Positions 9,729-27,850 of a stretch of 36,810 nucleotides of DNA are shown piece by piece. A program made the translations under genes and the position numbers. The stretch comes from Chloroflexota bacterium. Lineage in GTDB: Bacteria > Chloroflexota > Anaerolineae > Promineifilales > Promineifilaceae. Location of the stretch: positions 1 to 36,810 of the forward strand of contig JAAYYY010000562.1 of the NCBI GenBank assembly GCA_012515125.1, read 5' to 3'. The notes under the pieces are model-generated. The model was not told the origin of the DNA. It ran no database searches and worked only from the letters and a program-made list of their open reading frames with translations. The first letter of the stretch is position 1; each line of letters starts with the position of its first letter.

Positions 9729-12700
9729 ATGAGCACGAAGTTTGGTCTTCACGTCGCTTCGGGCAGCCACAACGGCTATGGTGACGTCGTCGCCGCGGCG
9801 CCCGCCGTCGTGCTCGCCGTTGGCGAAGGGGGCGCGCTGGTCGAAGCGCGGGAAAAAAGCGTGGCGGCGCCGGGCGCAGCGCCGCGGACCATCACCATCT
9901 TCCGCGACCAGACCGTCTTCCACGACGCCCCGCCCGGCATCGACCAGATGAGCGAGGCGCAGGCCAGGGCGGCTGCCGACCAGTACTGGCCCCAGCTCAA
10001 AGAGAAATACCGGCTCAACCCGGCCGATTACTACCAGGTAACCAACGAGTACGGGGGCGATAACCCCACTTCTCTGGCCAACCTCGTCGCCTTCGAGACA
10101 CGCCTGATGGAGCTGGCCGAGCGCGATGGCTTCAAGCTGGCGGTCGGCAGCCCTGCCGGAGGCAGCCCCGGTAGCTGGGAGCTGTGGGTCCGCTTCTACG
10201 TACCCCTCATCCGCCGCGCGGGCGAGGGAGGCCACATCTACAGCCGCCATGCCTACGGCGGCGTCGTCCATCCAGACGGCATTGCCACGCTGACCGCGCC
10301 CGACGGTCAGGCTGCCGACGATAACGCCGGCCGGCCCTTCCGCGAGGCCGCCTACCTGCGCGCGCAGGGAATTCGCACGCCGATCGTCATCACCGAAGCG
10401 GGGCAGAACGGCGGCTTCCGTTTTCCCGGCGTCGATACGTTCATGGAAGACATGGCCCGCTATGACCGGCTCTGCCGGCAGCACGAGAACATCTGGGGCT
10501 TCTGCGCCTGGACCTACGGCAAGTACCTCGACTTCCCGGCCAACATCGAACCCGCTTCCAGCCGCATGGCCGACTACCTACGGCAGCAGGGGGGCGCCAC
10601 GCGGCCGGTCTATCCCACCGTCGCGGGAGGCGTGACGCCGCCCGCGCCCGAGCCGGCTGTCACCACCGAAAGCCCGTCTGCGCCAACGTCAACCGGCTTT
10701 CGCTTTACCCACTGGCCGACCGAATACCGCCGGATCAACCAGGCCTACAACAACGATCCCGCCTACTACGGCCAGTGGGGGCTGACCGGGCACGAAGGGC
10801 TGGACATCCAGGCGCCGCTCAACAGTCGCATTTTTGCCTGCGCGCCCGGCCGGGTCGAGCTGGTACGTCGCGAGGCGGAGGGCCATCCCTATGGCAACGC
10901 CGTCTACATGCGTCACGACGACGGCTACCGCACTACCTATGCTCATCTGCAGCAGGTCAACGTGGCTGCGGGCGACCAGGTCGCCGGCGGCCAGCTGCTG
11001 GGGCTGGCGGGCAGTACCGGCAACTCGCGGGGCGCCCACCTGCACCTGACCCTGTATAAAGACGGCGCGACAGCCCGCGGCGAGACACGGCAGCCTCGCG
11101 ACATCATCGACCCGACGCCGTTTGTCAACGCCCTGCGCGCTGCCGAATGGGCGCCGCCGCAGCCGCCGCTGCTCAATGGCTGGGGTTTCGCCACAAGCAT
11201 CGAGCGAGCCGGAGAGCTGGGCCGGGTTAAAGAGGGCATCAACATCAATCTGCGCGCCCAGCCCAGCCAGCAGGCCGGCAAGCTTGGCGCGGTGCCCGCC
11301 GGCACCGTCGTGCGCGTCACCGGCAATGCCCAGAACGACTATCTGCCGATCCAGGTGGCCGAAGCCGCCGTTACCGAGCGCGCGGGGGCGGCTCCCGGCA
11401 CTCACGCCTACGAGTTCATCAGCTTTGAGAACAGCGCCGGCGACTACACCAACGTGCAGCCCGGCCGGCAGTTCACCGCTTCCTGGGTCGTGCGCAACAG
11501 CGGCGGGTTGCCCTGGTCGGGCGATTTCCAGCTCGCCTATAGCGACGAGCCGGTCGCGCAGACGGCTAACCAGGCGCGCTCGCGGCTGGGCGCGCCCGCT
11601 TCCAGCACCTTCCGGCAGCTCAGCGGGCGCGAGCAGATTGCCCCGGGCGAATCGCTCACCTTCCAGCTCAAGCTGACCGCGCCCCTGCAGCCGGGCTGGT
11701 ACGCTTCCCACTGGCAGCTGCGCACGGCCGGCGGCGAGGTGATCGGCCGGCCCCTCTGGCTGCACATCAACGTGGCGGGCGCGGTCGATCCCATTGTGAT
11801 CGGGCCGGCAGCGCCTTTCCAGGCGGGGATGAACATCAACCCCGACGTGCATCCGCCAGACGTAGACCGGCTGCGCGGCCTGAGCTGGGTGCGCTTCCCC
11901 TACAAGGCCTCGGCTAAACACCGCAACGTGGACCAGGCGTTCAACGACGAATACCGCGCCCTCATCCAGGCCTATGCGAATGCCGGCATCAAGAGCCTGC
12001 TCATCCTCAACCAGGAGACGGAGTGGGGCAACGCGCCCTGGCACAACGGCGATTGGCCCGGTTACGCCGGCTCGCTGGCCCGCGCGGCGCGGCGCATTGC
12101 CGAGCTGGCGGCTCCGTTTGGCGATAAGGTCGCCTACCAGATCTGGAATGAAGGAGACAGCGATCCGACCAACCCCTCGGCCATCGGCGTCAGCCCGGAG
12201 AACTTCGCGCCGGTACTGCAGCAGACCGCCGCCGCCATCCGCGCCGTGGACCCCGACGCGACGATTGTCTTCGGCGGGCTGAACACAGGGCCGGAAAACG
12301 CCGTGGCCTATGCGCGCCGCGTGCGCGACCTGCTCGGGGGTCGCCTGCCCGTCGATGCGCTGGCCTACCACCCCTACGGTCGCTACGTCGAGTTCGACCC
12401 GTTCTATGGCAAGCAGTTCGGCCGGCTGGACGACGCGCTGCGCGTTTTCAAACAGGCGTTCCCCGACCTGCCCCTGTGGATAACCGAGCTGGGCATCGCC
12501 AACGATACGCCCATCGGCCCCGAGCATTACGAGAAAATCGCCCGCTACATGCGCGAGGTCGTCAGCGCCATCGCCGACCGCCACGCGAAAAACGTCCCGG
12601 TCCTCATCTGGTTCGCCTGGTCCGACCACATGCGCAACGCCGGCATCTCCACCACGAGCGGCGAGCTGAAGCCGCACATCAAAGAGGCTTTTCAGGCGCT

Positions 12701-14156
12701 GGTCAACGCGGGCAAGGCCGCTCCCGCCTTCGCCGACATGCGCTTTGCCGCCGGCCGGCCCCAGCCCATGGCGGAGTTCGTCAGCTTCAGCACCACGCTT
12801 ACCGACCATAACGCCGTGCCCGCCGGCAGTACCTTCGCCAATACCTGGCGCTTCCGCAACACCGGCGGAACGACGTGGGACGAAGGCTACAAGCTCGTCT
12901 ACGCACCGCAGGGCGCGACGAGCCACCCGATGATGAACGAGAAGAGCTTTTCCCTGGCCAAAGTCGCCAGCCCGCTGCCCGCCGCGCCGGGCGACGAGGT
13001 AGCGATCAACCTGTCGCTCACTGCGCCCGAACAGCACGGGCGCGTCTACCGCAGCCCCTGGCAGATTCGCGACGCAGCAGGCAAGGCCTTCGCCCACCTC
13101 TATGCCGAGATTACGGTCATCCCGGCTTCTACCGAAGGGAGCGGCGCACGGCAGGCCGACATGCGCTTTATCGCCGACCATACCATCCCCGACGATACGC
13201 CTCTGCCGGAGGGGCAGACCTTCCTCAAGCAGTGGCGCGTGCAGAACACCGGCGCGCGGCATTGGGGCAGCGGCTTCCGTCTCGTCTTCGTCGAGGGCGA
13301 CCTGCAGATGGCGGCGGGCATTGCCTCGCACATGGTTCCCGAATCGAAACCGGGCGACGAGGTCATTCTCTCCGTGCCCATGGTCGCGCCGGTCGCCCAG
13401 GAGAAGCGCGCGACGACCTACAGCAGCCTCTGGCGGCTCCAGGATGACCGGGGCAACTTCTTCGGCGCGCCTATCTGGGCGCGCATCATCTCCCAGCCCG
13501 GGGAGATGGTCACGCCGCTCGGCCGCTTCGCCGATATGTCCGGCTGGTATTCACAGCACGATCCCCGTTGGGCCAACGAGCGACTGGGCCACGGCCAGCA
13601 GACCATCGGCGCGTGGGGCTGCCTGCTGACCTGTTACGCGATGATGCTCACCGCCTACGGCCTGCGCGTGACGCCTGCCGACGTGAACCGGCGCTTCCAG
13701 CAGCTCGGCGACCAGGGGTTCCGCGGCTCCGATGTGCAGTTCATCGCCCCCACCCATCTGCTCGCCGGGCTGACCCTGGGCCGCAACCTGCGCTCCTGGC
13801 CGACCCCGGAGCTACCGTTTACGGAGTGGACGGGCGAGGATCCGATTGCGCGCATCGACAGGGCCATCGCCGACGGCTTCACGGTGCTCGCCCAGGTAGA
13901 CCGCAGGCCCAACGATGCCTTCTACCACTCCAACACGGAGCAGCACTGGGTCATCCTCGTCACGCGGACGCCCGACGGCTCCGATTATCTGATGCTCGAC
14001 TCGATCACGCCGCCCGGCCAGCTACAGAACCAGCCGCTCTCGCTGATGCGCAAATATGGCAGCCCCGCGCCCAGCCGCTCCCACGAGGACAACCTGCGCC
14101 ACGCCATCAAATCGGCCCTGATCTACCTCTTCTCCGGGCAGCCCGGCAGCGGCTAG
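9729..14156 (+). CDS. Giant modular cell-wall/polysaccharide-active protein: glycosidase-like, M23 peptidase, SH3-like, NBR1-like Ig, glycosidase-like, two more NBR1-like Ig, C39-like peptidase
   Basis: M23: 'GHEGLDIQAP...YAHLQ...HLHLTL'. Glycosidase-like 1: 'YYQVTNEYGGDN', 'PIVITEAGQNG'. Glycosidase-like 2: 'VAYQIWNEGDSDP', 'LPLWITELGIAND'. NBR1-like: 'FTASWVVRNSGGLPWSGDFQLAY', 'FANTWRFRNTGGTTWDEGYKLVY', 'FLKQWRVQNTGARHWGSGFRLVF'. C39-like: 'YSQHDPRWANERLG...GAWGCLLTCYAMML', 'QHWVILV', 'MLDS'. RBS 'caggagg'. Confidence 0.88.
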   Translation: MSTKFGLHVASGSHNGYGDVVAAAPAVVLAVGEGGALVEAREKSVAAPGAAPRTITIFRDQTVFHDAPPGIDQMSEAQARAAADQYWPQLKEKYRLNPADYYQVTNEYGGDNPTSLANLVAFETRLMELAERDGFKLAVGSPAGGSPGSWELWVRFYVPLIRRAGEGGHIYSRHAYGGVVHPDGIATLTAPDGQAADDNAGRPFREAAYLRAQGIRTPIVITEAGQNGGFRFPGVDTFMEDMARYDRLCRQHENIWGFCAWTYGKYLDFPANIEPASSRMADYLRQQGGATRPVYPTVAGGVTPPAPEPAVTTESPSAPTSTGFRFTHWPTEYRRINQAYNNDPAYYGQWGLTGHEGLDIQAPLNSRIFACAPGRVELVRREAEGHPYGNAVYMRHDDGYRTTYAHLQQVNVAAGDQVAGGQLLGLAGSTGNSRGAHLHLTLYKDGATARGETRQPRDIIDPTPFVNALRAAEWAPPQPPLLNGWGFATSIERAGELGRVKEGININLRAQPSQQAGKLGAVPAGTVVRVTGNAQNDYLPIQVAEAAVTERAGAAPGTHAYEFISFENSAGDYTNVQPGRQFTASWVVRNSGGLPWSGDFQLAYSDEPVAQTANQARSRLGAPASSTFRQLSGREQIAPGESLTFQLKLTAPLQPGWYASHWQLRTAGGEVIGRPLWLHINVAGAVDPIVIGPAAPFQAGMNINPDVHPPDVDRLRGLSWVRFPYKASAKHRNVDQAFNDEYRALIQAYANAGIKSLLILNQETEWGNAPWHNGDWPGYAGSLARAARRIAELAAPFGDKVAYQIWNEGDSDPTNPSAIGVSPENFAPVLQQTAAAIRAVDPDATIVFGGLNTGPENAVAYARRVRDLLGGRLPVDALAYHPYGRYVEFDPFYGKQFGRLDDALRVFKQAFPDLPLWITELGIANDTPIGPEHYEKIARYMREVVSAIADRHAKNVPVLIWFAWSDHMRNAGISTTSGELKPHIKEAFQALVNAGKAAPAFADMRFAAGRPQPMAEFVSFSTTLTDHNAVPAGSTFANTWRFRNTGGTTWDEGYKLVYAPQGATSHPMMNEKSFSLAKVASPLPAAPGDEVAINLSLTAPEQHGRVYRSPWQIRDAAGKAFAHLYAEITVIPASTEGSGARQADMRFIADHTIPDDTPLPEGQTFLKQWRVQNTGARHWGSGFRLVFVEGDLQMAAGIASHMVPESKPGDEVILSVPMVAPVAQEKRATTYSSLWRLQDDRGNFFGAPIWARIISQPGEMVTPLGRFADMSGWYSQHDPRWANERLGHGQQTIGAWGCLLTCYAMMLTAYGLRVTPADVNRRFQQLGDQGFRGSDVQFIAPTHLLAGLTLGRNLRSWPTPELPFTEWTGEDPIARIDRAIADGFTVLAQVDRRPNDAFYHSNTEQHWVILVTRTPDGSDYLMLDSITPPGQLQNQPLSLMRKYGSPAPSRSHEDNLRHAIKSALIYLFSGQPGSG

Positions 14157-16949: not shown

Positions 16950-17621
16950 ATGATGCAGCGTGAAGTATCGCCATTTCAGCAAATCGTTCCCGTGCAGCGG
17001 CCGCCGGTCGTCCTGTTCCGGCGCCCCTACCGCATCAGCAAGCGGCTGTTTGACATTACCCTCTGCTTGCTGGCCCTACCTATATTGCTGCCGCTCGGCG
17101 CTCTGATCGCCCTGCTCATCTGGCTCGACGATCCGGGCCCGGTTCTCTTCCGGCAGTACCGTACCGGCTTGGGTGGGCGGCGTTTTGCTATGTACAAGTT
17201 CCGGACGATGGTTACCAATGCGGAAGAGTTGAAGGCGAAGTACGCGCACCTCAACGAGCTAACCTGGCCCGATTTCAAGATCACGGACGATCCCCGCGTC
17301 ACGCGGATGGGCCGGTTCCTGCGCAAGACAAGTCTGGACGAGCTTCCTCAGGTTCTTAACGTGCTCAAGGGGGACATGAGCCTGGTCGGCCCACGCCCGA
17401 CGTCGTTCGACGTGAGTACCTACTCGCTCTGGCACACCGAACGACTGGAGGTACTGCCGGGCATCACCGGGCTATGGCAGGTCAGCGGTCGGAGCGACAT
17501 CGATTTTGACGAACGCCTGCGCCTGGACATTGAGTACATCGAGCGGCAAAGCCTGCTGTTTGATCTGGCAATCCTGTTCCGCACAGTTGGCGCCATATTC
17601 ACCAGCCGGGGCGCCTATTAA
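16950..17621 (+). CDS. Undecaprenyl-phosphate sugar phosphotransferase (initiating EPS sugar transferase)
   Basis: 'SKRLFDITLCLLALPILLPLGALIALLIWLDDPGPVLFRQYRTGLGGRRFAMYKFRTM', 'RKTSLDELPQVLNVLKGDMSLVGPRP', 'LPGITGLWQVSGRSDIDFDERLRLDIEYI'. Confidence 0.95.
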   Translation: MMQREVSPFQQIVPVQRPPVVLFRRPYRISKRLFDITLCLLALPILLPLGALIALLIWLDDPGPVLFRQYRTGLGGRRFAMYKFRTMVTNAEELKAKYAHLNELTWPDFKITDDPRVTRMGRFLRKTSLDELPQVLNVLKGDMSLVGPRPTSFDVSTYSLWHTERLEVLPGITGLWQVSGRSDIDFDERLRLDIEYIERQSLLFDLAILFRTVGAIFTSRGAY

Positions 17622-17743: not shown

Positions 17744-18607
17744 GTGAAGCGTTTTCGACTCACTCTCGTACTGATTATCACCTGGTTCTTTCTACTCTAT
17801 AACGTCGAGCGGTTGGATGGGCCATCGGTTAACCTTGCCTCGTTTGTGTACGGTTTTGCCTTTGTGACGGCAGTCGCCGTGATCGCCGTGCCGGCCCTCC
17901 ACGAGTGGCCGTTGCCCAGGGTTCTCCTGATCATTCTGCCGCTTTACTTCCTGCTGAAGGTCTACCTCGATTATCCGATTGTCGGGGATGGCCTGATGCA
18001 CCTGCCGATCACGGTCACCGAGATTGCGGCTCTCGTCGTCACCCTGCTTCTCGCGCGGGATATCATGCAGCGCTTCACCCATCTCCAGAAGGGGCTCGCT
18101 CGTGTGACGCTGTCGCACCTCGACGATGCCTCTCCGTTTGAGGATGGGCAGAGCCTGATCTACCGGGAGATCCGCCGCGCGCGCCGCCGGCAGCGGCCGC
18201 TCGCCCTGCTCGCGCTGAAGCCAACGGCGTCCTCGGTCTCCTACTCCATGGATCGCTTCCTGGAAGAAGCACAGGCCGAAATCATCAAGCACTACATCGG
18301 GGCGAACGTCGCCAACCTGCTGCTGACGACCCTGGAAGATTATGACATTGTGACCCGGCGCAACAACCATTTCATCGTCGTGCTGCCCGAAGCAGACGAG
18401 GATGAGCTGCAAGAAACGATCGACCGGCTGCAGCGCGAGGCGCGCAACCGGCTGGGTATTGAGTTCAGTATCGGTACGGCCCGGTTCCCCGACGACGCCG
18501 TTACCTTTGGCCAATTGTTGACCGATGCGGAACGGGCCATGCACCGTTCGTCGGCCAGCGAGCCACCGGCCGAAAGAGAAACAACCGCCGTCGAGAGTGC
18601 GGCGTAG
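17744..18607 (+). CDS. Membrane protein with degenerate GGDEF domain
   Basis: Several N-terminal TM segments; 'IYREIRRARRRQRPLALLAL' (GGDEF-domain N-terminal helix/strand) and 'YDIVTRRNNHFIVVLPEADEDELQETIDRLQREARNRLGIEFSIGTARFPDDAVTFGQLLTDAERAM'; GTG start. Confidence 0.75.
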   Translation: MKRFRLTLVLIITWFFLLYNVERLDGPSVNLASFVYGFAFVTAVAVIAVPALHEWPLPRVLLIILPLYFLLKVYLDYPIVGDGLMHLPITVTEIAALVVTLLLARDIMQRFTHLQKGLARVTLSHLDDASPFEDGQSLIYREIRRARRRQRPLALLALKPTASSVSYSMDRFLEEAQAEIIKHYIGANVANLLLTTLEDYDIVTRRNNHFIVVLPEADEDELQETIDRLQREARNRLGIEFSIGTARFPDDAVTFGQLLTDAERAMHRSSASEPPAERETTAVESAA

Positions 18608-18659: not shown

Positions 18660-20324
18660 ATGGAAAAACAACATCTACGCCGTCTGCTCCGTCGCTGGTT
18701 GTGGCTGTTCCTGCTGGGAGCCGTTGTCGCCGGCGCCATCAGTTATGCCATTGAGAGCCGCAACCCGCCGCTGTACGCGACGACCGCCAGGCTGATTGTC
18801 GGGCCGGGCATCGACAGCCCCAGCCCCGACCTCAACGACCTGCGCGCTGGCGGCCAGCTGATGCAGACCTACGCCGAGTTGCCGGAGACGACGCCGTTCC
18901 TGCGTTCGGTTATCGAACAGCTCAACCTGAACCTGACGCCTTCTCAGCTGGAGGACATGATCACGGTCTATACCAATACCGATACGCAGCTACTCAGCAT
19001 CGACGTGGTCACCCCCGATCCTGTTATGGCGACGGCGATTGCCAACTCGGTGGCAGAGACCCTCGTCCGTTATAGCCCCTCCGGGGGCGAGACGCCGGCC
19101 GGCGCCCTGCACCAGCAGATTCTCCGGCAGGCGGATGAGATCGAAGCCTCTATTCCGGTAATCACTCAGCGGATTGAAGAGCTGGAGCAGAACATTGCGG
19201 CAACGGACGACGTCGAGGCGCAGCAGTTCCTCGCCGAGCAGCTCTTCGCCGAGCGGGAACGGCTTGACGAGTACCGTAGCACGCTGACGGGCCTCTTCGA
19301 GACGCTGCAGCGGTCGGCGACGAACCAGGTCAAGATCATCGAGCCAGCGCGACCGCCGACGCTCGTAGCTTCGCGGCTCTGGCTTGCGGTAGCCATCGGT
19401 GTTCTCGCCGGGTTGACCTTCAGCGCCCTTCTCGTCTTCGGTTACGAATACCTGACCGACAGTGTCGATACTGCCGAGGAAATGAGCGAGGCGACCGGCG
19501 TGGCTACGCTGGCCACCCTGGCTCGTAGCAAACCCATGCACAGCCCGCCACACATGAAAATGGTGGTCCGCGCGCAACCGACATCGGCAGCGGCCGAGGA
19601 ATACCGCACGGCGGCGATCAAGCTGCTCTTTGCCCGCCAGACGGGCCGCCCGATGCGTTCCATCCTGATGACCAGCGTGGAAGAAGAGCAGGATATCGGC
19701 GAGATCGCCGCGAACCTGGCTATCGTGCTGACCCAGACGGGCAGCCGGGTGGTGCTTGTGGACGGCAATATGCAGCGGCCAACCATCGGCCAGCACTTCG
19801 GCTTCCTCGACCGCTGCGGCCTGACCGACGTTCTGCGCGGCGCCTGCACGACGGCCGATCCCACCACCGTATACTGGGCGCCAGGGCTTTCCGTCCTGCC
19901 CAGCGGCTCGCTAACCGACAATGCCTTTACCCTGCTGGCCTCGCCGCGCATGGTGGACGTGCTGCAAGAGCTACAGGCGCGCACGGATATCGTCCTGATC
20001 ACCGCCTCGCCCCTCAGCAGCTCGGCCGACAGCCTTTTCCTCGCTCCGCACGTGGACGGCGTCATCCTCGTCGCTCAGAGCCGGCAGGCGCGCCGCCGTA
20101 TGCTGCGCAGCGCCGTCGCCAGCCTGCAGGCGGTCGGCGCCTCTATCGTCGGCGGCCTCCTCCAGGAAGGGGGCCGGCCCACGCGCCGCATCGCCTGGGG
20201 CCGCCAGCCAGACGTGGTGCGCGAGCTGGAAGACACCCTTCCCCTCCGCCCAGAGGAAGAGGATGTCCCCGAGCCCGAACAGGCCGAAGTAGGGCGTTCC
20301 TTCGACACCCTCCCTTCACAGTAA
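18660..20324 (+). CDS. Wzz-type chain-length determinant fused to a degenerate BY-kinase/CpsD-like domain
   Basis: N-terminal TM and Wzz region ('LRRLLRRWLWLFLLGAVVAGAISYAIESRNPPLYATTARLIVG'), second TM at 'LWLAVAIGVLAGLTFSALLVFGYEYLTDSVDTAEEM', then a MinD/BY-kinase-like domain. ATG at 18660, not 18525. Confidence 0.88.
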   Translation: MEKQHLRRLLRRWLWLFLLGAVVAGAISYAIESRNPPLYATTARLIVGPGIDSPSPDLNDLRAGGQLMQTYAELPETTPFLRSVIEQLNLNLTPSQLEDMITVYTNTDTQLLSIDVVTPDPVMATAIANSVAETLVRYSPSGGETPAGALHQQILRQADEIEASIPVITQRIEELEQNIAATDDVEAQQFLAEQLFAERERLDEYRSTLTGLFETLQRSATNQVKIIEPARPPTLVASRLWLAVAIGVLAGLTFSALLVFGYEYLTDSVDTAEEMSEATGVATLATLARSKPMHSPPHMKMVVRAQPTSAAAEEYRTAAIKLLFARQTGRPMRSILMTSVEEEQDIGEIAANLAIVLTQTGSRVVLVDGNMQRPTIGQHFGFLDRCGLTDVLRGACTTADPTTVYWAPGLSVLPSGSLTDNAFTLLASPRMVDVLQELQARTDIVLITASPLSSSADSLFLAPHVDGVILVAQSRQARRRMLRSAVASLQAVGASIVGGLLQEGGRPTRRIAWGRQPDVVRELEDTLPLRPEEEDVPEPEQAEVGRSFDTLPSQ

Positions 20325-21959
20325 ATGGCCTACATCGCCGAGGAACAGGATTCGCAGGGTAATTCCATGACATCCGAACCACCCGTCGTTCCGGTCGCGG
20401 AGATGGCCGACGGCGCCTCTACCCGCGACCAGGGAGCGAAGGCCACACGCCGCCACATCCGCGGCTCGTCTATCCTCTTTGCCGGACGGCTGATTTCCAT
20501 CGCCCTCAACTTTGGCGTGCAGGTGCTCACCGTTCGCTATCTGTTGAAGAGCGACTACGGCGCCTTCGCCTACGCCCTGTCCATTGCCTCAATCGGTGCA
20601 AGCGTCGCCCTCTTTGGCCTGGACAAGGCGGTAGCGCGCTTCATTCCCATCTATGAGGAGCGCGGCGAAGATGACAAGATGCTCGGCACCATCGTCATGA
20701 CGCTGCTGACCATTCTGGGAATTGGCGCTGCGCTCGTCCTGGGCGTCATTGGCTTTCGCGGCCTCATCGGCGACCGCTTCGTCCAGGACCCGCTCGCCGT
20801 CTCGCTGCTGGTTCTGCTGATTCTGCTTTCGCCCCTGCAGGCTATCGATAGCTGGTTCCAGGGGCTCTTCGCTGTGTTCGCCAAGCCGCAGGCCATCTTT
20901 GTACGCCGCTACGTGCTGGGACCGGTCATGAAGCTCGCTGCCGTGCTCGTCGTCATCCTCAGCCGTCAGGGCGTCTACGTGCTCGCCGTCGGCTATCTCG
21001 TCGCCGCCATCATCGGCTCTCTGATCTATGCCGCCATGCTGCGCCAGCTTTTCCGCGAGCGCGGCATCCGCGTCAGCGAGACGCTACGGCGCATTGTCTT
21101 CCCGGTGCGCGAGGTCTTCTCCTTCAGCACGCCGCTGCTGACCAGCGACGTCATGAACATCCTGAAGTCCAGTTTTGTCGTCGTCTTGCTGCAATATTTC
21201 GCCAGCACGACAGAGGTGGCCGAGTTCCGCGCCGTCGTCCCCGTTGCCGGCCTCAACCTCATTGTCATGCAAAGCTTCAAATATCTCTTCACGCCGGAAG
21301 CGGCCCGCCTCTTTGCCCGCCAGGATAGCCAGGGGATCAACGACCTCTACTGGCGTTCGGCTACGTGGATCGCCGTGATCACCTTCCCGGTGTTCGCCGC
21401 CTCCTTCTCCCTCGCGCGCCCCCTGACGGTTCTGCTCTTTGAGGAGCGCTACGCCAGCTCGGCGACGGTGCTGGCGCTGCTCACGCTGGGCAACTATATG
21501 AACGCCGCTATGGGCTTCAACGCTTACACCCTGCGCGTCTTTGGCAAGGTTGGCTATATTGTCGCCATCGACCTGTTCACCGCGCTCGTCGGCGTGGTCC
21601 TGAACGTCCTGCTCATCCCGCCCTATGGGGCCATTGGCGCCGCCATCGGTACGACGGCTGCGCTCGTTCTCTACAACCTGCTCAACCACGCCGGCCTGCT
21701 GCTGGGCACACAGATCCGGCTCTTCCAGCCCCGTTACCTGCGCGTCTATGCCAGCATTGTCCTCGGCGCTGTCGTGCTGCTGCTGATCGACCTGCTGCTT
21801 GAGCCGGGCGTTGTCGCCGGAGGCCTGTTGATCGCCGCCATTTCCCTGCTGCTCGTCCTCTTTAACTGGCAGGTGATGGAGGCCGGCCGGATGTTCCCCG
21901 AGCTGCATCGCATTCCGGTCCTCGGCCCGCGTCTGATGGCCCTGGAGAAACAATCATGA
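20325..21959 (+). CDS. Polysaccharide flippase (Wzx/oligosaccharide flippase family)
   Basis: Many TM segments; 'RGSSILFAGRLISIALNFGVQVLTVRYLLKSDYGAFAYALSIASIGASVALFGLDKAVARFIP' typical of Wzx. An internal ATG at 20367 is an alternative start. Confidence 0.9.
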   Translation: MAYIAEEQDSQGNSMTSEPPVVPVAEMADGASTRDQGAKATRRHIRGSSILFAGRLISIALNFGVQVLTVRYLLKSDYGAFAYALSIASIGASVALFGLDKAVARFIPIYEERGEDDKMLGTIVMTLLTILGIGAALVLGVIGFRGLIGDRFVQDPLAVSLLVLLILLSPLQAIDSWFQGLFAVFAKPQAIFVRRYVLGPVMKLAAVLVVILSRQGVYVLAVGYLVAAIIGSLIYAAMLRQLFRERGIRVSETLRRIVFPVREVFSFSTPLLTSDVMNILKSSFVVVLLQYFASTTEVAEFRAVVPVAGLNLIVMQSFKYLFTPEAARLFARQDSQGINDLYWRSATWIAVITFPVFAASFSLARPLTVLLFEERYASSATVLALLTLGNYMNAAMGFNAYTLRVFGKVGYIVAIDLFTALVGVVLNVLLIPPYGAIGAAIGTTAALVLYNLLNHAGLLLGTQIRLFQPRYLRVYASIVLGAVVLLLIDLLLEPGVVAGGLLIAAISLLLVLFNWQVMEAGRMFPELHRIPVLGPRLMALEKQS

Positions 21960-23239: not shown

Positions 23240-24405
23240 GGCTGTTCCTCTTCTGGAGTTCGGTAGGGCTGCTGATCTACACCTATTTCCTCTTCCCGCT
23301 GCTCGTCGCCGCGCGCGCCGTGCTGCGCCCCCGGCCGCACCGGGAGGCAAACATTACCCCATCCGTCAGCGTGATCATCGCCGCGCACAACGAAGAGGCC
23401 GTCATCGGCCCCAAGCTCGACAACCTGCTCTCGCTCGACTACCCGCGCGACTGCCTGGAGGTGATCGTCGCCTCCGATGGGTCGGATGACGGCACGAACG
23501 AGCTGGTGCGCACCTACGAGTGGCAGGGCGTGCACCTGCTGGCCCTGCCCCGGCAGGGCAAAGCGGCGGCCCTCAACGCCGCCGTCGCCGAGACCAAGGG
23601 CGAGATCCTCGTCTTCTCGGACGCCAACAGCATCTACGCGCCCGGCGCGCTGCGGGCTCTCGTCCGCCCCTTCGCCGACCCGACCGTGGGCGGCGTGGCC
23701 GGCAACCAGGTCTACCGGCCCGCCCCGGAGGCCAGCCTGGCCGGCGAGGGCGAAAAGCAATATTGGGGGCTGGATCGTCAGCTCAAGCTGTACGAAAGCG
23801 CCGCCGGGAACGTCATTTCGGCGACCGGGGCCATCTATGCCATCCGCCGCGAGCTGTTCGCGCCGGTCGCTGAGGGCGTCACCGACGACTTCTACACCTC
23901 AACGGGCGTGATCGCCCAGGGTTACCGCCTCGTCTTTGCGCCGCAGGCCATCGCCTACGAAGCGGTGGCGGGAAAGAGTGGCGACGAGTTCGGCCGCAAA
24001 GTGCGCGTCATCACCCGTGGCCTGCGGGGCGTCCTGCTGCGCCGCGAGCTGCTGGACCCGCGCCGCCACGGCTTCTACGCACTACAGCTCTTCTCGCATA
24101 AGGTGCTGCGGCGGCTGGTCGCCGTGCCGCTCCTCTTGCTGGCCCTCGTCAGCCCGCTGCTGTGGGCGCGCGGCGCGCTCTACCGTCTCGCCACGCTCGG
24201 CCAGGCGCTGTTTTATGGCCTGGCGGCCGCGGGCATCGCCGCGGAACGTTCGGGTCGCAAGCTACACAGGCTGCTGGCGCTGCCCGCCTACTTCTCGCTG
24301 GTCAACGTCGCCGCGCTGCAGGCGACGCTGAACGTCTTGCGCGGGCGCTCCATCGTCGTCTGGGAGCCGACCCGCGCCACGGCAGCGCCGGAGGAGGGAC
24401 GATGA
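23236..24405 (+). CDS. Glycosyltransferase family 2, membrane-associated
   Basis: 'PSVSVIIAAHNEEAVIGPKLDNLLSLDYPRDCLEVIVASDGSDDGTNELV', 'VFSDANSIYAPGALRALV'. Confidence 0.95.
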   Translation: MRLFLFWSSVGLLIYTYFLFPLLVAARAVLRPRPHREANITPSVSVIIAAHNEEAVIGPKLDNLLSLDYPRDCLEVIVASDGSDDGTNELVRTYEWQGVHLLALPRQGKAAALNAAVAETKGEILVFSDANSIYAPGALRALVRPFADPTVGGVAGNQVYRPAPEASLAGEGEKQYWGLDRQLKLYESAAGNVISATGAIYAIRRELFAPVAEGVTDDFYTSTGVIAQGYRLVFAPQAIAYEAVAGKSGDEFGRKVRVITRGLRGVLLRRELLDPRRHGFYALQLFSHKVLRRLVAVPLLLLALVSPLLWARGALYRLATLGQALFYGLAAAGIAAERSGRKLHRLLALPAYFSLVNVAALQATLNVLRGRSIVVWEPTRATAAPEEGR

Positions 24406-25979
24406 GCACACTGAGCGCGCGCGCCGAATCACTGCGCCTGTTCCTGCGTGCCTACAAGCCAGTCGTGGTCCTGCTGCTGGCGGTGCTGGGCGGCGTCATA
24501 GGCGGCCTGCTGGCGACCTCGCCGCTGCTGGCGCTGGCAAGCATCGTGCTGCTGGTGGTCTCCATCACGGTTCTCAGCTGGCCGGAAGCAGCCACGTTGC
24601 TGGTCATCTTTATCCTTTATAGCAACATCGCCGTCGTCCTGGTGCGGTTCCACGGCGTGCCGTTCATCGCCGGTGCGGCCTTTCCGTTGTTGCTGGCTCT
24701 CCCGCTGGCGATTTACCTGGTTCTGGAACGGCGCCCGCTGCGCATCACGCCCGCGCTGCCCTACGTCGTCCTCTTCATGGCCGCCCAGCAGGTCAGCCTT
24801 CTGTTCTCGAACGATCCTGCCGCCTCTTTCCGTGAAGTCACCAACTTCGTCCTCGAAGGCTTTCTCATCTACCTGCTGGTGATTAACGTGGTACGGACGC
24901 CCCGCACCCTGCGCCATGTAGCCTGGACGCTGCTGCTCGCGGGTATCGTCCTGACGGCGGCGCCCTTTTACCAGCAGATAACGGGTAGCTTTGACGACAC
25001 GTTGGGGGGCTTCGGCCAGCTCTCCGAAGTTGGCTTCCGCACGGGGGAAACGAACCTGGTGGAGGGCGATTTACGCCAGTACCGACTCTCGGGCCCCATC
25101 GGCGAACAAAACCGCTACGCCCAGGTGTTGCTCATGCTGGTGCCGCTCGGCTGGTTTGCCCTCTATTTCGAGCGGTCGCTCGGCCTCAAGCTGCTGGGTC
25201 TGGCCCTGGCCGGCGTTGCGCTGGGCGGTGTGGCCCTTTCCTTTTCTCGTGGCGCGGCCGTGGCTTTTGTCATCCTCGTGTTAGCCATGCTGGTGACGCG
25301 CCTGCTTCGCCCGGCCCATTTCCTCGTCTTCCTGCTGCTTGTCGCCGTCGTCCTGATGGCTGTGCCGCAGCTAACGGTGCGCCTGGTGACGATCCCCTCA
25401 GTGACAGATCTGCTCAGCGAGGAGACGACGACGAGCGAGCTGGACGGCGCCATCCGCGGGCGGGCGACGGCCATGATTGCCGCCGCTCTCGTCTTCGCCG
25501 ACCATCCGATTGTCGGCGTAGGGCCGGGGCAATTTCAGTTCTATTCCGCCGAGTACGGGAACCGGCTGGGCATCCGTATTCTGGAAGGGAATCGGGAGGC
25601 CCATTCGCTCTTCCTCGACGTGGCCGCCAACTATGGCATCCTTGGCCTGATCTCTTTCCTGGCTATGGTCCTGGTGCCCATCCGCGTTATTCTGGCTGCC
25701 CGGCACAAGCTGGCAGGTCGCCGGCCGGCGCTCAGCTACCTGACGATTGGCTTTGCTTTTGCCATTCTGGCCTATCTGGGTACGGGCATCTTCCTGCACC
25801 TTTCCTACGTGCGCTATTTCTGGCTGATGCTGGGCCTGGCCGATACGGCTGCGCTGATTGCCCAGCGCGCAGCCAATGAAGAACCGATCGTGCGCGCCTA
25901 CGCGGCGACGGCTGGCCTGAACGCGCGAGATTACGCAGGCGAATGGCTGCCCGGCGAGACAGCAGGAGGCTCGCAATAA
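24402..25979 (+). CDS. O-antigen ligase/polymerase-like membrane protein
   Basis: Multi-TM; Wzy_C-like 'GRATAMIAAALVFADHPIVGVGPGQFQFYSAEYG...REAHSLFLDVAANYGILGLISFLAMV'. ATG at 24402 rather than 24162. Confidence 0.88.
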   Translation: MSTLSARAESLRLFLRAYKPVVVLLLAVLGGVIGGLLATSPLLALASIVLLVVSITVLSWPEAATLLVIFILYSNIAVVLVRFHGVPFIAGAAFPLLLALPLAIYLVLERRPLRITPALPYVVLFMAAQQVSLLFSNDPAASFREVTNFVLEGFLIYLLVINVVRTPRTLRHVAWTLLLAGIVLTAAPFYQQITGSFDDTLGGFGQLSEVGFRTGETNLVEGDLRQYRLSGPIGEQNRYAQVLLMLVPLGWFALYFERSLGLKLLGLALAGVALGGVALSFSRGAAVAFVILVLAMLVTRLLRPAHFLVFLLLVAVVLMAVPQLTVRLVTIPSVTDLLSEETTTSELDGAIRGRATAMIAAALVFADHPIVGVGPGQFQFYSAEYGNRLGIRILEGNREAHSLFLDVAANYGILGLISFLAMVLVPIRVILAARHKLAGRRPALSYLTIGFAFAILAYLGTGIFLHLSYVRYFWLMLGLADTAALIAQRAANEEPIVRAYAATAGLNARDYAGEWLPGETAGGSQ

Positions 25980-27109: not shown

Positions 27110-27850
27110 GTGAAGGAAAAACGGAAAGGTACGCACGAGAAAATGTTCTCAGTGGCCCTCATTGGCGCCGACGGCGCAGGAAAAACCACGGTCGCCCGCC
27201 ATCTTGAAGTCCGGCAGGAAATGCCTGTCCGTTACCTGTATATGGGCGTCAGCAAAAGCTCCAGCAACCGGATGCTGCCCACAACTCGTCTGATGCTGGC
27301 TCTAAAGCGGGCTGCCGGCCGGGATGACGACGAAGGCGGGCCGCCCAATCCCGCGCGGCAGGCACGGCCTGCGCGTGGCTGGCGCCGCCTGCTGCGATCG
27401 GGCAAGCGGGCGCTCTCGCTGGCGAACCGCCTGGCCGAAGAGGGCTACCGGGCGCTTCTGGCGACGCACTACCGCCGCCAGGGCTATATTGTTCTATTTG
27501 ACCGTCACTTCTACAGCGATTACTATGCTCATGATATCGTCGGCAACGGCCATCAAACCCGCTGGCGGCGCATACACGGGCTCTTTCTCAACCACTTCTA
27601 CCCAAAGCCCGATTATTTGATTCTTCTCGACGCCCCGGCGCCCGTCCTGCACGCGCGCAAAGGGGAAGGTACGGTTGAGCTACTTGAACGTCGTCGCGCT
27701 GAATACTGGCAGCTTCGGGAACAGGTTCCCTATTTTTCCGTCGTCGATGCGACCCAGCCGCAGGAGGCCGTCGTGCAGCAGGTGACCGACCTGATCCGCA
27801 ACTTCCAGAAACAGCAGCGCGAACCTATTGTGGGCGGGGTGGAGGATTGA
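27110..27850 (+). CDS. Thymidylate kinase-like P-loop kinase
   Basis: 'VALIGADGAGKTTVARHLE', 'VLFDRHFYSDYYAHD', 'PDYLILLDAPAPVLHARKGEGTVELLERRRAEYWQL'. Confidence 0.75.
   Translation: MKEKRKGTHEKMFSVALIGADGAGKTTVARHLEVRQEMPVRYLYMGVSKSSSNRMLPTTRLMLALKRAAGRDDDEGGPPNPARQARPARGWRRLLRSGKRALSLANRLAEEGYRALLATHYRRQGYIVLFDRHFYSDYYAHDIVGNGHQTRWRRIHGLFLNHFYPKPDYLILLDAPAPVLHARKGEGTVELLERRRAEYWQLREQVPYFSVVDATQPQEAVVQQVTDLIRNFQKQQREPIVGGVED

Follow-up and report, generated by a model that had tools for sequence, protein, structure and literature searches.

A Chloroflexota clade of Wzz/PCP-2a proteins with a fused BY-kinase fold that has lost its catalytic motifs

The window, by which we mean the whole stretch of DNA analyzed (36,810 nucleotides), is contig C484 of a Chloroflexota assembly of 4.69 Mb in 721 contigs (94.5% complete, 8.8% contaminated). 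It carries an exopolysaccharide cluster with Wzx- and Wzy-like genes, in which the following features are considered here:

16950..17621, + strand: polyprenyl glycosylphosphotransferase, the initiating sugar transferase (Bac_transf, 224 bits)
17744..18607, + strand: membrane protein with a degenerate GGDEF-like domain, RNNHF replacing GGDEF (GGDEF 27.1 bits, cut-off 23.8; orthologue alignment)
18660..20324, + strand: Wzz/PCP-2a protein with a fused BY-pseudokinase domain, 554 aa (translation, profile matches, PDB matches, model)
18660..19488, + strand: PCP part of this protein, about aa 1-276, with two transmembrane helices and an extracytoplasmic Wzz-like region (Wzz match, model)
19596..19616, + strand: position of the octamer-interface motif EX2RX2R, reading EEYRTAA, last Arg replaced by Ala (alignment)
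19671..19721, + strand: Walker A position, TSVEEEQDIGEIAANLA, aa 338-354, Ile346 in place of the catalytic Lys (gapless alignment with canonical relatives)
19749..19781, + strand: Walker A' position, VVLVDGNMQRP, aa 364-374, second Asp replaced by Asn370 and Arg by Gln (alignment)
19992..20012, + strand: Walker B position, VLITASP, aa 445-451, Asp replaced by Thr448 (alignment)
20166..20321, + strand: C-terminal tail, the 52 residues past aa 502, without Tyr, acidic and predicted to be disordered (sequence, model)
20325..21959, + strand: Wzx-like flippase (Polysacc_synt, 71.6 bits)
24162..25979, + strand: Wzy/O-antigen ligase-like polymerase, a mechanical ORF whose true start is probably further in (Wzy_C, 69.8 bits)
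27110..27850, + strand: thymidylate-kinase-like (TK-like) P-loop protein with an intact GADGAGKTT (Thymidylate_kin, 27.5 bits)

Downstream of the PCP gene the cluster encodes Wzx, glycosyltransferases, the Wzy_C protein, an ATP-grasp protein, a polysaccharide deacetylase and a sulfotransferase, and there is no second Wzz in it. A 1475-aa protein encoded at 9729-14156 has matches to M23 peptidase, to a cellulase-like domain and to three NBR1-type Ig-like domains.

The PCP-pseudokinase gene extends beyond the interval, 19653-20060, in which the first-pass annotation had placed a Wzz/BY-kinase fusion. Its probable start is the ATG at 18660, preceded by the purine-rich GGAGAGAGA, and the mechanical ORF runs from 18525; two antisense ORFs (18990-19796 and 19442-20065) overlap the gene, and homologues match the sense frame. 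The protein scored 93.5 bits against NCBIfam eps_fam, under the cut-off of 108, and also matched polys_exp_MPA1, while a sequence search of the PDB returned CapAB/Wzc. The Wzz family match (18675-18923) has 22 bits, under the cut-off of 25.5, and orthologue L056 reaches 34 bits. An AlphaFold2 model made with 58 relatives in the alignment (pLDDT 89.6) places transmembrane helices at 14-33 and 240-265, flanking the extracytoplasmic Wzz-like region; together with the fused BY-kinase fold and the surrounding Wzx/Wzy cluster, these are the characteristics of a PCP-2a protein. The solved kinase domain that fits best is CapA1B1 (4jlv; TM 0.94 by target length, rmsd 1.5 Å), and full-length Wzc chains also match the predicted structure. 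As modeled, the cytoplasmic domain retains the BY-kinase fold, in agreement with the earlier claim that fold-level sequence had been kept.

All of the features of an active BY-kinase that we considered, i.e., the Walker A Lys, the DxD of Walker A', the Walker B Asp, the Tyr cluster and EX2RX2R, are absent from this domain or incomplete in it. Gapless alignment also shows that the Asn of VLN, which closes the last strand, is replaced by Gln502, and the tail that follows has 0/52 Tyr compared to a median of six in other full-length relatives. For Walker A, Walker B and the tail, the residues to which the first-pass annotation had drawn attention are present and its reading of them holds: Ile346 occupies the place of the P-loop Lys, Asp has become Thr448 and the tyrosine cluster is missing. 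The Walker A' sequence that it quoted is present as well; the second Asp there is Asn370 but the first, D368, is kept here and in every one of the eight pseudokinases described below (8/8), so that the loss of this motif is partial. A P-loop elsewhere in the domain was looked for and none was found: there is no Lys after K321, and therefore no P-loop is possible elsewhere in the kinase-like domain. A compensated frameshift hiding a P-loop was ruled out, as the other two frames encode none. With a BY-kinase fold but neither the Walker motifs nor a Tyr tail, and with these losses common to its orthologues, the protein is a BY pseudokinase in the sense applied to EcpK and HfsB, the retained first Asp of Walker A' notwithstanding.

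Could such losses be errors of sequencing or assembly, or the decay of one pseudogene? The fragmentation of the assembly might encourage that idea, but it is ruled out by seven orthologues from other assemblies (L055, L056, L057, L015, L058, L066 and L067) that have the same losses in full-length frames with no stops, and we give it a negligible probability. The searches covered relatives, family and class as well as genome contigs, and duplicates with identical sequences were equated (L014 = L055, L069 = L056, L068 = L057); a search of plasmids gave distant matches only. The seven come from other Chloroflexota and are 34-49% identical, the nearest named relatives being Chloroflexota metagenome genomes, of which one is Caldilineaceae. 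The Walker A Lys, the Walker B Asp, the VLN Asn and the last EX2RX2R residue are lost in 8/8 proteins and the second Asp of DxD in 7/8, while the tail has no Tyr in 7/8 and a single Tyr in the eighth.

A 70-protein tree places the eight pseudokinases in one clade (support 100/100), with L059 (G047) as its sister (99/97). L058 and L067 have long branches there; however, a tree built from the PCP part, without the kinase columns, recovers the same group, though support falls to 90/79 (100/100 when the sister is included), and we therefore reject long-branch or motif-driven clustering as its source. In the sister the Walker A Lys is Arg (GEGRST) and Walker B reads LDSPA, but DADLRRP, EX2RX2R and three tyrosines in the tail are retained, and its upstream genes are those of the pseudokinase loci. 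The position of the group among canonical Chloroflexota relatives suggests an origin inside the phylum. Two other Chloroflexota PCP/BY-kinase proteins with damaged motifs, L041 (G030; Walker A Lys replaced by Ala, Walker B Asp by Cys) and L033 (G036; VGRT and DGN), lie elsewhere in the tree and look like separate losses. Judged from sequence, the catalytic losses are old, shared and retained in one Chloroflexota clade.

A loss beyond those listed in the first-pass annotation is that of EX2RX2R: at its last position all eight pseudokinases have Ala or Gly, where the sister and 60/61 other full-length relatives have Arg. This motif, on helix alpha-2, and the Tyr cluster each contribute one half of the BY-kinase octamer interface (PMC3795738). 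Because its loss, combined with that of the Tyr tail, strikes parts of both halves, canonical ring assembly by the pseudokinase clade appears unlikely, and a scaffolding role of the domain, should it have one, would probably take a form other than the canonical ring. A reasonable alternative is an oligomer driven by the PCP part, a step that we infer from the corresponding periplasmic motif interface, where the buried area in Wzz is about twice that in Wzc (PMC8285477).

A major question arising from these losses is why the domain has been kept. All eight proteins still have about 200 residues of sequence resembling a BY-kinase, with 16 positions conserved across pseudokinases and canonical relatives, and mean identity within the eight is nearly the same in the kinase-like domain (37.3%) as in the PCP part (37.6%). 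Nei-Gojobori (NG86) dN was below dS in every comparison in which both could be estimated, although third positions are near saturation, the values are rough and one comparison gave no estimate. Canonical pairs at similar PCP distance, on the other hand, share 47.7% identity in the kinase domain compared to about 37% in the pseudokinases, and we take the domain to be kept under a constraint that is weaker than, or different from, that on an active kinase. The proposal that this is a pseudo-BY-kinase kept by selection is thus well supported, as the fold is kept, the losses are common to a divergent monophyletic clade and constraint persists.

The same numbers bear on the possibility that the domain is a passive relic, required only for folding or stability while the PCP part does all of the work as a constitutive Wzz-like oligomer. 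Erosion of both octamer-interface halves and the lower conservation relative to canonical proteins at equal PCP distance are what such a relic would be expected to display, and HfsB is reported to matter for the stability of HfsA (PMC12004946). However, a useless cytoplasmic end could simply be dropped, as the architecture of PCP-1 proteins illustrates, whereas here it persists in 8/8 proteins with its shared conserved positions and an identity equal to that of the PCP part; we consider the relic possible, with perhaps one chance in a few of being correct.

Might phosphorylation occur in trans instead, with the dead domain as an allosteric partner in mixed oligomers with an intact BY-kinase encoded elsewhere? 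The check for such a kinase that the first-pass annotation had suggested was positive: at least five other loci of the assembly have an intact P-loop lysine, and BY-kinase-like proteins with intact motifs are encoded on contigs C279, C169, C479, C53, C424 and C143, which indicates that the organism still has BY-kinases in general, although with 8.8% contamination some of these loci may be foreign. L007 and L008 (on C53 and C424) are short contigs with near-identical BY-kinase ends, perhaps a duplicate, a strain variant or an assembly artifact. There is also a precedent in inactive CapB1, which has been proposed as an allosteric partner of CapB2 (PMC3795738). But the tail offers no acceptor tyrosines and the EX2RX2R contact is damaged in 8/8 proteins, no BY-kinase or tyrosine phosphatase gene was recognized in the exopolysaccharide cluster, and the assembly has its two LMW phosphatase genes on other contigs. 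Phosphorylation in trans is, in our estimation, improbable. No match to a CpsB/CapC-type phosphatase was found in the assembly.

The clade sits in a recurrent module of glycosylphosphotransferase, GGDEF-like membrane protein, pseudokinase-PCP and, often, TK-like protein. The GGDEF-like gene is present within 1.5 kb in 6/9 pseudokinase or sister loci (the window, L055, L056, L057, L059 and L067; L015 is a short contig that lacks the upstream side). In the orthologous membrane proteins the GGDEF position reads RNNHF, RNDHF, RDEHF or RGDHF, and RDDHF in the sister, with His-Phe conserved. A TK-like gene directly follows the PCP gene in five loci (L056, L057, L059, L066 and L067), where its homologues are longer than that of the window (e.g., 8009-9331 in L056 and 7357-8727 in L057); in the window and L055 it is found downstream at a distance of about 7 kb. 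The TK-like proteins of L059 and L067 have a weak N-terminal nucleotidyltransferase match (NTP_transf_5). Neither gene was found in the flanks, about 1.5 kb wide, of the 64 other PCP-kinase loci (0/64). The model of the GGDEF-like neighbor is poor (pLDDT 71.6) and its PDB matches are not significant, so its assignment depends on Pfam scores just above the cut-off. Other GGDEF-like members adjoin sugar transferases at places where short flanks showed no relative of this PCP, and the GGDEF-like protein may consequently belong with the sugar transferase instead.

PCP-2 proteins in the standard model cycle between octamer and monomer through tyrosine phosphorylation. By sequence and model, the protein described here keeps its PCP part and BY-kinase fold and has lost the residues for ATP phosphotransfer and for autophosphorylation of the tail. 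We lean toward the explanation that it is the co-polymerase of the Wzx/Wzy exopolysaccharide cluster and would control polymerization and chain length with no need for cycles of phosphorylation. In this view the PCP part, in the membrane and outside the cytoplasm, would keep the oligomer together in a manner similar to PCP-1 Wzz, and other products of the cluster may dock onto the dead cytoplasmic domain. The candidate partners suggested by gene neighborhood are the glycosylphosphotransferase, the GGDEF-like membrane protein and the TK-like protein. Counting against docking, the flanks compared were mostly 1.5 kb and common descent accounts for part of the synteny inside a single clade, the loss of EX2RX2R could equally mean that the domain contacts nothing, and the lower identity (37 versus 48% at matched PCP distance) fits relaxed as well as changed selection. 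A more specific version, in which the dead domain is an adaptor coupling the PCP to the GGDEF-like and TK-like proteins, so that another control input replaces the tyrosine cycle, we put forward as speculation that is rather unlikely to be right. Retention of the domain for scaffolding or assembly, as originally proposed, is nonetheless plausible by analogy with EcpK and HfsB.

BY pseudokinases have been described before, EcpK and HfsB as separate proteins and fused PCP/pseudokinases by sequence in Proteobacteria (PMC12004946). EcpK of Myxococcus xanthus, which belongs with EpsV to a Wzx/Wzy EPS pathway, has a BY-kinase fold without Walker A, A', B or C-terminal Tyr, a loss common to its orthologues, and although it lacks all motifs it is important for EPS synthesis (PMC12004946). 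It differs in being a separate protein with a basic-helix end beside a PCP without a kinase domain (PMC12004946), whereas the window protein has its domain fused to the PCP, a disordered acidic tail and the first Asp of Walker A'. HfsB, with HfsA in Caulobacter crescentus, is likewise a pseudokinase needed for a Wzx/Wzy polysaccharide, in a bipartite and proteobacterial system (PMC12004946). Closer in architecture are SMc01795, BCETI_6000729, Mlr8439 and VV1_2305, each a PCP and a catalytically incomplete BY-kinase domain in one polypeptide (Cuthbertson et al., via PMC12004946); these are proteobacterial, and the likeness to the Chloroflexota clade is drawn from their description in that source. 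Wzc of E. coli and CapA/CapB of S. aureus share the PCP-2 architecture and kinase fold and are the nearest solved structures, but they have Walker motifs and a Tyr cluster, and Wzc and CapB2 are active kinases. PCP-1 Wzz proteins work without a kinase and, in contrast to the window protein, have no cytoplasmic kinase-fold domain.

We found no paper on Chloroflexota PCP/kinase proteins in the open-access literature. We conclude that this is a real Chloroflexota clade, a new family of a fused dead kinase kind already reported in a few other bacteria. With no active site, no substrate tail and part of an interface motif gone, and with a syntenic sister in which the Lys has become Arg but DxD, the interface motif and tail tyrosines stay, the clade constitutes a natural loss series that lets one ask what non-catalytic role the kinase domain has and in which order its parts went.
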